Shown here one piece after another: positions 5,009 through 36,937 of a stretch of 64,000 bases of DNA. Numbering within the stretch: the first letter of the stretch is position 1; each line of letters begins with the position of its first letter. This stretch comes from Sphagnum magellanicum. Lineage: Eukaryota > Streptophyta > Sphagnopsida > Sphagnales > Sphagnaceae. The DNA is taken from positions 24,187,223 through 24,251,222 of the forward strand of contig CM038907.1 of the NCBI GenBank assembly GCA_021904315.1, written 5' to 3'. Both the position numbers and the translations under genes were made by a program. The notes below the pieces were generated by a model. The model saw only the letters and a list, made by a program, of their open reading frames with translations. It was not told the DNA's origin and ran no database searches.

Positions 5009-6423
5009 ATGGATGCAAGAGAATTTATGATTCTGTTTGGGAGCACAGAGATGTGCCTAGCAGCTGACAGCAGCATAAATGACCCCATGCCAATTGACAA
5101 CCCCATAGCAGGTGCAACCTCTGACATGCCATGGACCTCTATCTTCCTTGTCATATGCACTGCAATGTTTGCAGCTCTTTCAGGGCAGCCAACTGTGCAG
5201 GAATGGGCTGTCCCTTGCCACAGCTCACTGTGGCAAAAGATGAACAGGAGAATTGGAGCCCTAAGCCCATCTCAAGAGAAGTTATGGATTAAGAATTGCA
5301 GGATGACATACCCTGCTTTTGTGTACCTTGTTGAAGAGCTCAGGCCTTTTATTGCTCAGAGTACACAGACTGTTCGTGACCCTGTGGAGGTTGAGCTGGC
5401 GGTGGCTATGGTGTTGAACAGGTTGGCCACAGGGTAATCACCATTAGCAGTTGGGGAGATTTGGGGAGTTGGAGCTTCAACTGTTGTCAAATATACAAAG
5501 CTCGTCACCTCCATTCTTGCAAACAAGAACAAGCTCTACTCCAAATATGCGGTCATCCCAACCACTGAACGACAGCAACGGATCACAAGTAATTTCATGG
5601 AGCTAACAGGGATTCCAAACATGTGTGGTGCCATTGATGGAACCCACATTGTGCTGCAGAAGAAGCCAGAGCAGCTGCATGGACCTGCTGTTTACAGAAC
5701 AGGATCAGGTGACCAATCTCACTATTCAATTCTTCTCCAAGGAGTGTGCGATGGGGACAAAATTTTCTGGGATGTGTGTTGCAATGCAGCAGGAGGTTTG
5801 GATGATAGGGCACACTTCAAGGCCAGCAGCCTTTGGACAAAGCTGAGGAACAAGGAAGTGCTGAGCCAACCTACCATCAATGTGCAAGGTACAAATTCAC
5901 ACTTGGAAATTTTGATGCAAGCTTCATATAGTCTTCAAAATTCTGGATCTCCCAACAACCAACCATAATTTTCACTTCCTTTGGTCAATTATTGTGCCAG
6001 GTAAAGCTGTGCAACCCTACTTGGTCGGGGATGAGACTATCCACTCTCCCCCTTCCTGATCAAACCATTCAACAAGGTGCAAGCCATTGACAGTCCAGAA
6101 AACTCTTTTGATCTCCAAATTCAGAAGGGCCATGCAAGCATCTGCACAGCATTTGGGCTACTGAAAAGTTGATGGAGGATTCTTAGGCACCTGGATGTTG
6201 ACCTCAAATTTGCAGCACAGACAGTGGTGGCATGTTGTGTGTTGCACAATTTCTGTCAAATATCAGGGCAGAAGGAGCCAGTGGCTCAAGTGGATTTGAA
6301 CCCCAACAACAATTTCAGTATCTCGAGCACAGACATTGACAGAGAAGTTGAGATTGCTGGCAATGACATTCGTCATGCTTTGTTTCTTGACTGGTTTTAT
6401 CACCATCAAAACTCTTTCTAATA
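5009..6423 (+). pseudogene. Decayed PIF/Harbinger (HARBI1-like) transposase
   Basis: This is a remnant of a PIF/Harbinger DDE transposase, the nuclease that moves this class of DNA transposon. The N-terminal helical block is intact from 5009, followed by a GVGASTVVKYT helix-turn-helix-like segment and the diagnostic GAIDGTHIVL motif (first catalytic Asp) near 5630. The second-Asp region reads LVGDET near 6024, and the FGLLKS-WRIL and CCVLHNF blocks appear near 6152 and 6230. The gene is broken in three ways. A TAA interrupts the frame at 5435-5437. The frame shifts and returns between about 5890 and 6053. A TGA at 6170-6172 stands where this family usually has Arg (a CGA-to-TGA change). The residue before FGLLK is not the usual catalytic Glu. 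It ends with TAA at 6421-6423. The element is almost certainly inactive. Confidence 0.85.
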
Positions 6424-30240: not shown

Positions 30241-33200
30241 CTAGCTGCTTGTTGAATTGTGCCTATTTTCCCACATTTCTCCCAGGTCTGTTGACACCTC
30301 ACTACTACTTGAGTGGCAGTCATCCTCCTTGTGACACACATTTGAGGATCCCCCTGCATCCAGACCTTGATATGGCTGGATTCCGGCAGTTGCTAAATGC
30401 AGACTTAGATTTGATTTGCTGCGAGAGTTTTCATAGTCTTCCCGCAAGCAATCATATTGAATCATTTCAGGAAGGAGTCCAAGCAATGGGCTATCAGATA
30501 GCACAGGATCCTCTACCTCTTCAGCCCACATGTAGATGTGAGGATTCTTCGGATGTATTTTGAGGACATCAGCCATATCATGCAGAAACTGGAAAACAGG
30601 CAACAGGGCCGAGTGCCTTGACTTTTCATACCCATGTCTTGTAAGTGTGCTTGACAGGGTGCAGCCTGCAAAGTCAAGGTACCATCCTTCAAGAAGCTCT
30701 GCCCATATCCCACTTGGATTCTTCAGGAGCACCCAGAAAAGGACCTGTCGAAGCCCTGCTTTTGTTACGGAGAGCACCCTCAAATTCTTGGCAGATTGTA
30801 CAAGCTTGAGACAATCTGTGGCAGCAAATGCTGTTTGATCTATGACTTCAGGCATTGCTAGTACTACTGCCTTAAGATTCTCATACCCTTCCAAGGGTAA
30901 GGTGTGGCCTTTCCTTTTCTTGTAGACCTCAAAAAACTCTGCCACAGGAAGACCATGTCCAATATAGTTGTCACTACCCAGTATCAGCCTAAGTTCATGC
31001 TTGACTTTTGGAGAGGGAGAGGGATTCAAGAAATTTGAGTTTGAATTGCAAGCTTCAGTGTCACTCAACTTGTTTGCCCAACTCCCAATTTGAAGGCTCT
31101 GGCTTTGACTCTGACTGCTTGTTTTGAGTCCAGAAATGCTGAGCTTCACATCACAGGGTTTGAGTGAAGTCAAATCTTTGGACTCAACCTCATTGTCAGA
31201 GCAAGTGCCATCACCAACATTGCAATCCAATAGGTCAAGAAGTGGAAATTCACCATCCCTCAATTTCACCACTAGTGATCCATCTTCTCGACATCCAAGG
31301 CGTACAAAATCATCCATATCATGCAATAACATTTGCAGCTCTGCACAATCAGCAAGTTGAAATTCTGAACCCCTACCACCAAGCAGTCCTTGGGTGGTGG
31401 CATCTAAATCATAGAGGTATCCATTTGCTTTAAACATATCTGACAGTTTCCCAGAAAGGGTTTGTTCAAGGCATTGGACAAGTTCAAAAGGGTCTGGTCC
31501 TTCGGGGTAACGGGCCAGCAAGATAGCAAAAACTGCTGACCGCAAGCCAGTGGTGACAGTATTGACAACACGCCAATTTTCATGGGTTTCTGCAGGGAAC
31601 ACATAACCCGGTAGGTGGCTTCTTTGAAGGAAAATATCTTCCCAACAATGTACAAGTGCTTCAACTGAGGAAAATCCCATTGCATTTAGATCAAGAGTGG
31701 TGGAAAACATCTTTTCATAGATTTCTGATATCTTCAAAAGCTCTGCACCTTGGCCCTCATTGTGCAATGCTAATAGTAATCTGAGTCGCAATCTCACTTG
31801 TCGGGCAACATCTTCTCCAGACCATGGAAAGTCATCATCACAATCTTCAGACATTTGTAATTCAGAGGCTCTCAAGACTTGTAGGTCTGCAAGCTCTTCT
31901 AGGCACATACCTCCTGGCCCAATTCTTGCATCTGCTAGAACAAATACTTCCTCTTAAACCATGGCTTCCATATGTAATCAACAAACTTCAAATCTCTTAC
32001 AACAATGGCAGAAAGATAGATCTTCCTGCGAAAGGGATCGTTACTGGCAGGATAAAAACCTGTGAAAGTTCTCTCAAATCTATCATCAAAGTAAGACCCT
32101 CTTTGTGATTTTACTGATGTGATGTTCGGCTTCATGATTGCCTCCAACCCATGGCACATGACATGATCATGACAAGAGCTTACTCTTAGAGTGGAAAGAA
32201 TGCACCTGGAAGAGTTTGGAGTCATGCACCTTCAGTGACATCACTTGCCATGTCTGCTTGTGGTGGTGGTGCTGAATAGCTGCTCCATTGCTGATGATTG
32301 TATTTTGTGTCAGCTGTCTTCTCTTCCTCATTAACCACACAGTGCTTGCCTTCTCTAAGAGGCAAAAGCCTCTTGTCAGCTCTTCCAAGAAGCAACCCAT
32401 CTGTGAAAGCGGGGTCTTCGGCTCTCTTAGACAGATACACACGATTCTCCAGCCCAACCTCACTGATGTAAGCTATGTCAGGCATGTCAGTGAGCATGCA
32501 CTCCACATTGGGGGAATGATAGCCATGATCTGTAAGAATCTTGCATAGTGGTTCCATGAGTAGCCTGGAGCATTCCTCTTCCATTTCGCTGAATCCAAGG
32601 CCTCCAGGATGTTGCACTAGGACGTCATAAACAATCCTGCGCAGACCAGATCGAATGCCTGCTACAACCCTATGATTCTTGGATGAGTCCACCAGATGGA
32701 TTCTCCTTTGTTCACTCAGGATTACACGCTCCACCACATGTGGCATGGCTCGACACAACCTTGCTGCATTGCTGAACCCTGAATCCTCAATCTTCTTTCC
32801 AAATGTGTTCTCATACAAGCTCACGAAGGTGGAGACATGTCGGCCCTTCACTTCAAACAGAGGTGAAATTGCAATCACCCGCACTTCATATTGTAGCCTT
32901 GCACGGAAGTCTGGTTCTCGTGCTAAATACCTCATGCATTCATCTTCCCAGAGCTCATGAAAGTTCACATCTTCTTTGAAACTCAAGTCAGATGCTACTG
33001 CTCTTGACTCATCGCTGCCACTGTTGTTGTTTTCCTTTCGCATCATCATCATACCTTCACTTGTCTTATGACAATTCTCGTCCTCAGGTAGAGCTGGTTC
33101 AATCTCACCCATGATGCCTGAAATGATTTCCCCTTGGCTACCGTTAACAAAGGTAATCTGTACAAGATTTGTGGAACCTTGTAAGACAATACATGATGAG

Positions 33201-33627
33201 CTCGGAACTATCGACAGCAGATTTGTGTATCTCAAAGAGCCATCAGAACTCACAGATCGGATGCAAAGTGAAGACTGTAGATTATCCGGACACCAGATGC
33301 TGCATGATCCAAGCTAAAGAGCTCGAGACAAGGTTCATAGATCTAATGCATGAAGGAATCTTCATCAGCAACAAGATCTAAAGGAAGTCCTTTCCACAAG
33401 ACAATTGTTGTGTATTTTTTTGCTACATAACTGCATTGGTGGTTGTTTCGAATCTAACAACCACCAATGCAGTTATGTATGAGGAAATCTTAGAGATACC
33501 TTCCCGAGGAGCTTTCTTGCACGTCCTTATCGAGAACTTTGTTTGACCCCAAATCTCTGCCCAGTCTCTGGAGTTTCTTCACGACTTTTTTGAATTCTGA
33601 AGATTCAAATCTCATCAAAGCTAGCAT
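30241..33627 (-). CDS. Protein with six LOTUS/OST-HTH domains in three tandem pairs
   Basis: Exons 33627-33500, 33299-32230 and 31931-30241 join in frame (phases 2 and 1) to give 962 residues. The first ATG at 33627 follows an in-frame TAA. After a basic helical N-terminus the protein shows six repeats of the LOTUS (OST-HTH) pattern: a leading LR helix, G-L-x-x-x-E/F, a Y or C helix, G-x-x-L, G-F/Y, then an MP-D/E/H-V strand. Positions are about 175-246, 258-335, 443-504, 525-624, 709-777 and 789-869. Examples are SGFSNAARLCRAMPHVV, HGYHSPNVECMLTDMPDIAY and GYENLKAVVLAMPEVI. Each second member of a pair begins with the linker V-x-x-G-LR. Repeat 4 carries an insertion of about 20 residues; a Ser/Gln-rich linker separates pairs 2 and 3. 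LOTUS domains elsewhere bind DEAD-box helicases or RNA in silencing granules. No NYN nuclease, Tudor or zinc finger is visible, so the role is unknown. An alternative acceptor at 31934 would add one residue. Confidence 0.75.
33424..33479. other. Perfect 24-bp hairpin inside intron 1 of the LOTUS gene
   Basis: Bases 33424-33447 are the exact reverse complement of 33456-33479, leaving an 8-base loop (TCGAATCT). The hairpin lies wholly within the 200-base intron 33300-33499. It would form in pre-mRNA on either strand. It could be a short foldback insertion, a microinversion-type duplication or a small-RNA precursor. Confidence 0.9.
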
Positions 33628-34440
33628 CTGCTTGCCATGATCGGCGCGAGCTCGTTTCTTCACTACGTATGTCGGTTGTTATCCCCATTACCAGCAGCAA
33701 TTATGTGCAACAGTGCAGCCTGGCGTCACTAGCTGGATGCTCATAGAGGTATGGGAGCTTCTTGCATTTGAACGTTCAGATGCTTGCTCTTCTTCCTGAT
33801 TCACGCGTCATTCTTGGGTGTGCAAGAGATCCTTAAAAAATTGTATGGCTTGTGAAATGGCCCAATGCTTGAATTACATGGGCATCAAAACGCTCTGAAG
33901 TTTTGACAACAACAACACGGTGTGGAGGCGCTCCCTTTTTTCTGCTCTCTGCGATAGATCCTTGCGCTTGTAGATTGTAGACGTGTGCGTGCAAATACCT
34001 CTGTATCGATTTTCCTGCACCACAAGACAAACGTCCCATTGAGAGAGAGAGAGAAAAGGAGAAGAAGAAGATTGAGTTTGATTTTTTTTTTGGTAAAGGA
34101 TCTTCAACCTCGATTGTCTGAGCAGAAATCTTTTGGATATATTTAAGCGATGTCATCCTGGATTTCTCCCAAGAAATTGATAAGACGAGGACACAACAAT
34201 CAAGGCTGACACAAAAACGGAAAAACAATGAAAGAACAAAAATTCTCGCCAAACTCGATGCAGCAGATTCCAACAGCACACACCACCATGCTGCTGCTTC
34301 GTCTTCTTCTTCTTCTTCTTCGTCTTCTTTTTCCGACCGCAAAATTACGAATTCCCTTTCCCAAAAACAAGTGACAAAACAATAAACTCTAACGCAATTA
34401 TCTCAACAATTGCAATGGTGGAAACAAATAAATCAACCCA
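33628..34440 (-). promoter_or_regulatory. Upstream region of the LOTUS gene
   Basis: This lies directly upstream of the start at 33627 in transcription direction and probably contains the 5' UTR and promoter. A CTTCTTCTT run (GAAGAAGAA on the gene strand) at about 34297-34328 and a GAGAGAGAGA run at 34040-34053 resemble the purine- or pyrimidine-rich tracts common in plant 5' leaders. No start site could be fixed. Confidence 0.35.
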
Positions 34441-34860
34441 CAAGGTCATCGTCCAATGCAAATGTTACCTCCAACAAGAACCAATGTCACATGCACAAGG
34501 TCATCGTCCAATGCAAATGTTACCTCCAGCAAGAACCAATGTCACATGCACAAGGTCATCGTCCAATGCAAATGTTACCTCCAGCAAGAACCAATGTCAC
34601 ATGCACAAGGTCATCGTCCAATGCAAATGTTACCTCCAACAAGAACCAATATATCACATGCACAAGGTCATCGTCCAATGCAAATGTTACCTCCACCAAG
34701 AACCCATACATCACATGCACAAGGTCATCGTCCAATGCAGATGTTACCTCCAACAAGAACCAATATATCACATGCACAAGGTCATTGTCCAATGCAGATG
34801 TTACCTCCAACAAGAACCAATATGTCACATGCACGAGGTCATCGTCCCATGGAGATCTTA
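34441..34860. repeat. Minisatellite, about 7.5 copies of a 55-57 bp unit
   Basis: The marker CAAGGTCATCGTCC begins at 34441, 34496, 34551, 34606, 34663, 34720 and 34777, with a diverged copy at 34834. The first three periods are 55 bp and the rest 57 bp, the two sizes differing by an AT insertion near AATATATCAC. All three plus-strand frames and one minus-strand frame stay open across most of the array, which is why several overlapping open frames of 150-170 codons appear. These carry no domain and are best treated as by-products of the repeat. The array ends in a CTC/CAACAA simple repeat. Confidence 0.9.
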
Positions 34861-36937
34861 CCTCCTCCTCCAACAACAACAACAACAGAGGATACCCAAA
34901 ATCTGAGACAGAGGTGAGAGAGAAGCAATAGCAAATGGGAGAATGCAAAAGCTGTGATTGTTCAGACGCTGGAACGGTATCCAAATTACGCCCACCCAAA
35001 AATGGTGCATGGGCGTCCAACGGCAACATAGAAACTCTTTTCATTAACTTCCAATAGGTACTACTTTAAACTTCCAATGGGTGCCAACTTTTGGGGGAAT
35101 ATGTTTTTGATAATCCTAAATTTCTGATTTTAACCAATGAGATTTTTTTGGGAAATGGGAGAGGGAGACAGAGAGAATGAAGCCACGAAGGAAAAAGTTG
35201 GTTTTGCAAAATGGGATTTGTTTTTTCTGAAGATGGGAATGTAGTAGGTACACAAACATGTCAAAATTTTACATGAACAAACATCTTTATGTTTTGTGCC
35301 TTCCCAAAATCTTTATTGGCCTTACCTAGCAAGGCAAGGATATTGTGTTTAGATTCATTATAGAGTATATAGTAGCTTAAGGGATTTTGGCCCCTAGGTA
35401 ATAATAATAGGTCTATATTTTTAAAAGATAATGTTTTGGCTTGTGTTGAAACTTGAGACTAGTGACAAAGTTATAATATCTTGAAGGATTTTGGTTCTTT
35501 AGAGGATTCTTTGAAGATTATATTTTTGCATGGTGAGATATTTCATCATTCTTCTTTTGCCTTAAGATACTTTTTATTGTAAATGGCAAGGCCGCAGTGT
35601 GACACTCCCCTTGTTATGATTATGTCTTGTTTCTTTCATTAGATTTTTCTTGGAGGGTGAGGTGGTGGACAAGTGTGGGGGGCATTTTGAACCCATTTTG
35701 ATGAGAGAGATCACAGAACTTGTAGTTTTCATTTGGTTGCACATTTTGAAGAATGTTCACCACATCGGTTGTAAATTGAAGAATGGGAAGTTGCTCTCGC
35801 GATTTGAGGATTCTCCATTATGTGTTATTTTTATGATTGTTATTGGCCCTTTTTTGCCATGCATAAAATAGACCTGTACTGTGTTGCACCATTGTGTCAC
35901 ATGCATTGAAGACCATGTCAATTTTTGGGGTCAATTTTGTACTACCTTGATTATTATATACCTAGAGCAATTTAAGTAAATATATATGCTTTTGTTACTA
36001 TGTAGTGTTTTGTGTGATTTTCAGCAGTTTTAAAATCTCTCCCAATATGGATCAGTTGCAAATCTTTTGTCAAATTTTCTGTAGCTATTAAATCCGCTGC
36101 TGGATCCGCATTTGATTTCTGAAAACTTCATGGACAATTCTGTTATTCTAGCCGTCCTCAAACAGGTGTGCTCTGAATAGGTAGGGTGTTCTTAGGAAGG
36201 GCCATTAGTCTAGGCCAAAAATAGTGGAGCCAATTTTAGGATTAGAATTTCTATGCAACCAATGAGAAGTCAGGTCATGGAGTGAAGGGACCTCTCTTTT
36301 TTCTCCTGTGGGGGTGGGTCAAAGCAAAGAGTTCCCAAATTCCTCACATGTTCCTCAAAGCATTCTCAATAGCACCTCACTTTTACCCCATATGCTTTGG
36401 CAAATGTTGTCCTCCTTTCACCTATATAGCTGAGCCAAGGGGAAGGAACTCTATGCTTCAAAATAGAACCTTCTGTTTTGGAGAGCCTCCATAGTTTCAT
36501 TTGGTTTTGAGTGATAGGCCAATTAAATTGACTCATTGCAAGAGAAAAACAAAGAAAAAGATTAGAGGTGAACAGGGGAGGTGAATAGGATGAAAAGTTG
36601 GTCCCACATTTTGAGGGATGTTGAATAGGTGTACATACTGTGAATTGTACAGTTATTTTGTCTATGAAAACTTCAGGGAATGTTTCATATTTTTAAACTG
36701 TTATGTGATGAGTTTTTCTTTAATGTAGGACTTCATGATCAAAACCTGTAGTCTGCTGTTGTTTTGATGTTATAAGCACTACCAGGGTCATGATTTTGGA
36801 CAACTATCCATCAGAATTCAATGTTCCACATACATTTGCTATCCACTTATCCAAAAACATATTTTCAATAAGTTTTTATTATCCTAAAATAATTTTGAAG
36901 CATATTACCAATCAGTAACATTGGCCCGCATACTTTA
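34861..36937. other. Intergenic DNA with one copy of a dispersed repeat
   Basis: No gene recognised. Positions 35315-35615 match 55017-55340 in the same orientation, including GGCAAG-AT-TTGTGT, AGATTCATTATAGAG, GGATTTTGGCCCCTA, GCTTGTGTTGAAACTTGAGA and TTCTTCTTTTGCCTTAAGA blocks. The rest is unremarkable. Confidence 0.5.
35315..35615 (+). repeat. Dispersed repeat, copy 1 (partner at 55017-55340)
   Basis: About 300 bp align by eye with 55017-55340 over ordered shared blocks with small indels. Neither copy has terminal inverted repeats or a coding frame, so the class is unknown. Divergence suggests old copies. Confidence 0.7.

Follow-up and report, generated by a model that had tools for sequence, protein, structure and literature searches.

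Long tandem arrays of LOTUS (OST-HTH) domains are found in the animal MARF1 proteins, which are described as carrying six to eight copies (PMC6168497, PMC7279887, PMC6294520). MARF1 is reported to bind mRNA 3′ UTRs via these tandem domains (PMC7279887). Drosophila MARF1 has six LOTUS domains and, according to its description, no NYN domain; it binds CCR4-NOT and shortens poly-A tails (PMC6168497). The human protein, in contrast, is reported to act through decapping factors and its intrinsic nuclease rather than through deadenylases, with which it does not associate; when its LOTUS fragment was assayed by itself, decapping factors were not pulled down (PMC6294520). In plants, LOTUS domains are reported from the mRNA-decay nuclease DNE1 (PMC10226599), which combines NYN with two copies, from MNU1/2 (NYN, two LOTUS, OHA and WW), and from AtC3H18, a protein of mRNP granules with a CCCH zinc finger, one LOTUS domain and an RRM, whose LOTUS domain moves to foci upon heat in Arabidopsis (PMC9335048). 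Plant OST-HTH domains have also been described together with ankyrin repeats and ubiquitin-network domains (Anantharaman 2010, PMC2848206).

The window examined here, a 64,000 nt stretch of the Sphagnum magellanicum genome, carries on its minus strand, from 33627 to 30241, a gene for a predicted LOTUS protein. As stated in a preliminary description of this DNA, its three exons join in consistent phase to give 962 residues. A stop codon follows, and GT and AG bases stand at the intron borders (Table 1). The exon 1 donor is phase-compatible with the acceptor preceding 33299, while the acceptor of exon 3 is a TAG-CAG doublet, leaving one residue uncertain.

Table 1. Predicted features of the LOTUS gene (window coordinates; scores are those of the LOTUS HMM described in the text).
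Feature	Position	Strand	Details
Exon 1	33500..33627	-	ATG at 33627; residues 1-42; GT donor at 33499
Exon 2	32230..33299	-	LOTUS pair A; GT donor at 32229; within a 363-aa stop-to-stop frame
Exon 3	30241..31931	-	LOTUS pairs B and C; stop codon at end; 570-aa stop-to-stop frame
Introns	33499-33300 and 32229-31932	-	GT donors, AG acceptors
LOTUS domain 1 (odd type)	32690..32914	-	Residues 172-246; 11.8 bits; 0/1000 shuffles as good
LOTUS domain 2 (even type)	32423..32665	-	Residues 255-335; 12.5 bits; 0/1000 shuffles as good
LOTUS domain 3 (odd type)	31594..31812	-	Residues 440-512; 22.5 bits; 0/1000 shuffles as good
LOTUS domain 4 (even type, with insertion)	31258..31566	-	Residues 522-624; 2.6 bits; 17/1000 shuffles as good
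LOTUS domain 5 (odd type)	30799..31011	-	Residues 707-777; 21.2 bits; 0/1000 shuffles as good
LOTUS domain 6 (even type)	30523..30768	-	Residues 788-869; 15.8 bits; 0/1000 shuffles as good

Sequence comparisons confirmed the predicted organisation of the protein as six LOTUS domains in three pairs (A, B and C). The LOTUS HMM was built from 13 LOTUS domains of the same genome (profile A2: 11 PF12872 search matches and two chosen by eye) and three PDB stretches, the window protein being left out, and each domain was scored against 1000 shuffles. On the full-length protein it gave six matches totalling 52.4 bits, with the fourth at -2.7. The assignment of domain 4 is the weakest of the six and must be considered marginal; it rests mainly on similarity to domains 2 and 6, whose even-type invariant residues are also present in domain 4, and in a leave-one-out search it scored 4.0 bits, with 6 of 1000 shuffles as good. 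The curated Pfam model (PF12872), proposed earlier as a check, was less sensitive and passed its cut-off once, for domain 3 as the single stretch scored within exon 3 (25.0 bits versus 23.8). On exon 2 the OST-HTH cut-off was not reached and there was no match. Taken as isolated segments, the first and third gave OST-HTH scores of 12.8 and 18.4 bits, both below threshold, and segments 2, 4, 5 and 6 gave no OST-HTH match. A PF12872 search of the host genome (438,994,042 bases in 31 contigs) did not return the window at E 0.001. Segment 3 also gave a match to B_lactamase-like_C, which was rejected (15.3 bits, cut-off 27).

Comparison with 177,635 PDB sequences placed the six-segment profile closest to the LOTUS domain of TDRD5 (3s93, E 1.3e-7), followed by TDRD7 (2lh9, 0.0032; 3rco, 0.014) and FI02030p (8wxs, 0.051), the same four entries that head the list for profile A2. 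In profile-profile comparison with A2, all six segments together matched at 97.3%, the odd set (domains 1, 3 and 5) at 96.6% and the even set (2, 4 and 6) at 87.1%; for each set none of 100 column shuffles was as good, and reversed alignments reached at most 1%. When the half profiles were searched separately against the PDB, TDRD5 came second in both cases (odd, E 0.026; even, 0.015), behind the synthetic protein 6fes for the odd profile (0.013) and a putative translation initiation inhibitor, 7kgc, for the even profile (0.0063). MARF1 (5yad) was found by the odd profile at 0.2, and a UPF0076 protein, which we take to be of the same family as 7kgc, by the even profile at 0.23. Since only TDRD5 is common to both half profiles and is also the top match for all six segments, 6fes and 7kgc were rejected as relatives and regarded as chance matches. 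Single-sequence searches of the PDB were uninformative: the best matches of one were two ribosomal S13 sequences (E 0.78 and 0.79), which are not credible, and a second gave no credible match.

The three pairs are clearly repeats of one another. Alignment scores were 164 for A and C, 86 for B and C, and 72 for A and B, compared with maxima of 51, 49 and 60, respectively, in 500 shuffles. The linker between odd and even members (N-x-R-V-(V/L)...GLR) retains N, RV and GLR in all three pairs, in agreement with the shared V-x-x-G-LR linker noted previously, and a segment that follows the even domain (EDP...LLG) is common to pairs A and C, with pair B aligning there in part. Compared directly, the odd and even profiles matched at 5.7% (P 0.0067), which is not convincing, and they are linked via other LOTUS domains. 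By sequence, then, odd and even members are distinct LOTUS subtypes, and the repeat unit is the odd-even pair. The domains also vary in charge, with computed pI values of 9.86, 5.22, 5.84, 4.53, 7.35 and 8.90 for domains 1 to 6, i.e., domains 1 and 6 are basic, 5 is near neutral and 2–4 are acidic. Because the charges differ in this way, pair B may serve protein contacts. Serine-rich spacers are present between domains.

The suggestion that the protein has no other domain was borne out by Pfam: OST-HTH was the sole family matched by exons 2 and 3 at E values to 10, and no family exceeded its cut-off in the exon 1 frame. A search of NCBIfam gave no match. Upstream frames were included in the search for the partners known from other LOTUS proteins. 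Pfam detected no NYN in exons 2 and 3, and none above cut-off in the exon 1 frame or in three of the five minus-strand frames of at least 75 aa between 33400 and 40000; RRM was likewise not detected by Pfam in any of these. A tblastn search of the window with NYN sequences of the same genome (from L018, from L020 and from a raw stretch of L014) found none; since the LOTUS domains escaped it as well, it speaks for close relatives only.

The window protein resembles the mRNA-silencing MARF1 of animals in a reduced form, with no enzyme part found. Its six calls, the fourth marginal, fall within the six to eight tandem LOTUS domains of MARF1, which the preliminary description had overlooked in giving one to three copies as usual. 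Drosophila MARF1 (CG17018), compared by description only, likewise has six tandem LOTUS domains without NYN, but also an RRM, which was not found here. In MARF1 the RRM precedes the LOTUS array. Vertebrate MARF1 (limkain b1) shares the tandem LOTUS domains, but is described with eight copies that bind mRNA 3′ UTRs and, in addition, with two RRMs, an NYN and a decapping-factor-binding region at its C-terminus; neither NYN nor RRM was found in the window protein. Compared with DNE1 and MNU1/2, as described, the window protein has six LOTUS copies in three pairs, and the NYN that accompanies their two LOTUS domains was not found in the frames scanned; AtC3H18 has a single LOTUS domain with its zinc finger and RRM.

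Six tandem LOTUS domains are already known in animals, while a LOTUS-only plant array is without precedent in the literature found. The preliminary description knew of no such architecture in land plants, and no multi-LOTUS plant protein appeared in the titles and abstract openings listed, nor an example in passages of Anantharaman 2010 (PMC2848206), a statement limited to this literature. In the accounts consulted, plant LOTUS domains stand beside a nuclease or a zinc finger, and a LOTUS-only array would depart from that, would demonstrate that arrays of the MARF1 kind originated, or persisted, outside animals, and would allow the role of an array to be tested free of an attached nuclease.

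Searches of the same genome with exons 2 and 3 recovered, at E values to 1, no sequence other than these two exons, each of which also matched the other, and exon 3 against a prokaryote genome collection gave 13 pattern stretches, none confirmed, in a search that detects close relatives only. More distant relatives are provided by the 11 PF12872 matches in the genome, which fall in eight loci. Four of these (L014, L017, L018 and L020) encode NYN plus LOTUS by Pfam. L014, which we take to be MNU-like from its architecture, has NYN and three LOTUS domains, the first two (d1 and d2) adjacent. Three loci (L013, L015 and L019) have one LOTUS domain apiece; L013 and L015 are similar genes whose LOTUS parts are 85% identical, each lying in a frame some 528 aa long that has no further Pfam domain above cut-off. 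The remaining locus (L016:2979-5180, plus strand) is a single open frame encoding a protein kinase with a C-terminal LOTUS domain, preceded by a second LOTUS-like stretch recognised by eye. To our knowledge, this kinase-LOTUS architecture has not been described.

By profile comparison, the odd type matched L014 d1 (94.4%), the second LOTUS domain of L017 and L018 (84.4%; DNE1-type by architecture) and L014 d2 (56.1%), and the even type matched L014 d2 (79.6%), the L016 kinase pair (22.6%) and the first LOTUS domain of L017, L018 and L020 (12.1%). The best matches thus follow the same odd-even order as the adjacent domains of L014. A tree of 19 domains did not reproduce this pairing: L014 d1 and d2 were placed apart from both sets, the odd set joined the second LOTUS domain of L017 and L018 (85/91), and the even set lay, weakly supported (72/87), next to the kinase pair and to the first LOTUS domain of the NYN genes. 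Only 3 of the 16 inner branches were well supported. It is plausible from these sequence relationships that the array's domains are linked to those of NYN nucleases, whichever the exact source pair.

Our preferred reading, by analogy and at nearly even confidence, is a LOTUS-only adaptor that binds mRNA and brings in factors for its decay or repression. The array would have arisen through repetition of one odd-even unit akin to the LOTUS pairs of NYN nucleases. Its two basic domains (1 and 6) and the near-neutral domain 5 would touch structured or G-rich RNA, and the acidic domains 2–4 and serine-rich spacers would offer surfaces for protein contacts. Such an array could retain target mRNAs and bring decay or repression factors to them in cytoplasmic granules, comparable to Drosophila MARF1 in acting without a nuclease. 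Against this, half of the domains are acidic and the RRM of Drosophila MARF1 has no counterpart found here. The differing MARF1 mechanisms, with no deadenylase association reported for the human protein, weaken the case for an adaptor, and for the targets of DNE1 no G-quadruplexes were predicted and a short G-rich motif only was reported (PMC10226599). Somewhat unlikely, in our estimate, is the broader proposal that a plant lineage independently built a nuclease-free, LOTUS-only, multivalent mRNA-binding array from a LOTUS pair of an NYN nuclease, converging on the plan of Drosophila MARF1, with odd and even members differing in their RNA and protein roles. Confidence in both the adaptor and its independent origin is lowered because the tree gives no support for the L014 pairing.

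The acidic character of domains 2, 3 and 4 would suit a protein-protein scaffold, an array binding helicases or other granule proteins and holding no RNA, which we consider unlikely. Animal eLOTUS domains are reported to bind Vasa, and the segment following the even domains of the window protein, alike in pairs A and C as far as sequence goes, could correspond to the C-terminal helical extension that Vasa binding requires. As reported, however, this extension is missing from plant LOTUS domains, and plants lack a Vasa ortholog (PMC5458760). The alignment of the even profile also leaves the TDRD5 LOTUS domain at residue 78 of 102. The earlier suggestion of a scaffold for a DEAD-box helicase is not supported and is weakened by the reported lack of a plant Vasa ortholog, making a Vasa-type helicase role for the array less likely.

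The ties of both subtypes, by profile comparison, to LOTUS domains of the four NYN genes would also be expected if the protein had diverged as a partner of the NYN-LOTUS nucleases, either a co-factor or competitor for shared targets or a descendant after NYN loss. Modest tree support and the failure to find NYN in the window by tblastn (close relatives only), or above cut-off in the scanned upstream frames, speak against this, and we consider it about as unlikely as the scaffold.

Coding evidence is uneven along the length of the gene. The proposed frame had the top codon score of the three same-strand frames in all seven stretches tested, two of which are sub-stretches of exon 3. Exon 1 scored 0.18 in frame, and the 62 codons preceding MGEIEP, at the start of exon 2, scored 0.07 versus 0.09 for one opposite-strand frame. 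Because of this poor score, the methionine at 33112 may be the true start, with exon 1 then 5′ UTR; the LOTUS domains are unaffected by the choice between 33627 and 33112. These weak scores and the ambiguous second acceptor could also indicate a pseudogene or two neighbouring genes merged in reading, but this is very improbable given the 363- and 570-aa open frames, splice junctions that keep phase, and in-frame codon scores that are positive for exon 3 overall as well as for its last 90 codons and the B-C linker.

Several other features lie in the neighbourhood of the LOTUS gene. Nearby frames match SBP, with ankyrin repeats 4.4 kb further on (perhaps one gene), and CGLD27-like, GH17 and plant transposase sequences. 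A transposase frame at 5438-5965 (plus strand) matches PF04827 above the cut-off and PF13359 below it. Upstream of the LOTUS gene, at 34439-34865, is a minisatellite with 7.6 copies of a 57-base unit (94% matches); the unit length is divisible by three, and the region is crossed by several open frames.
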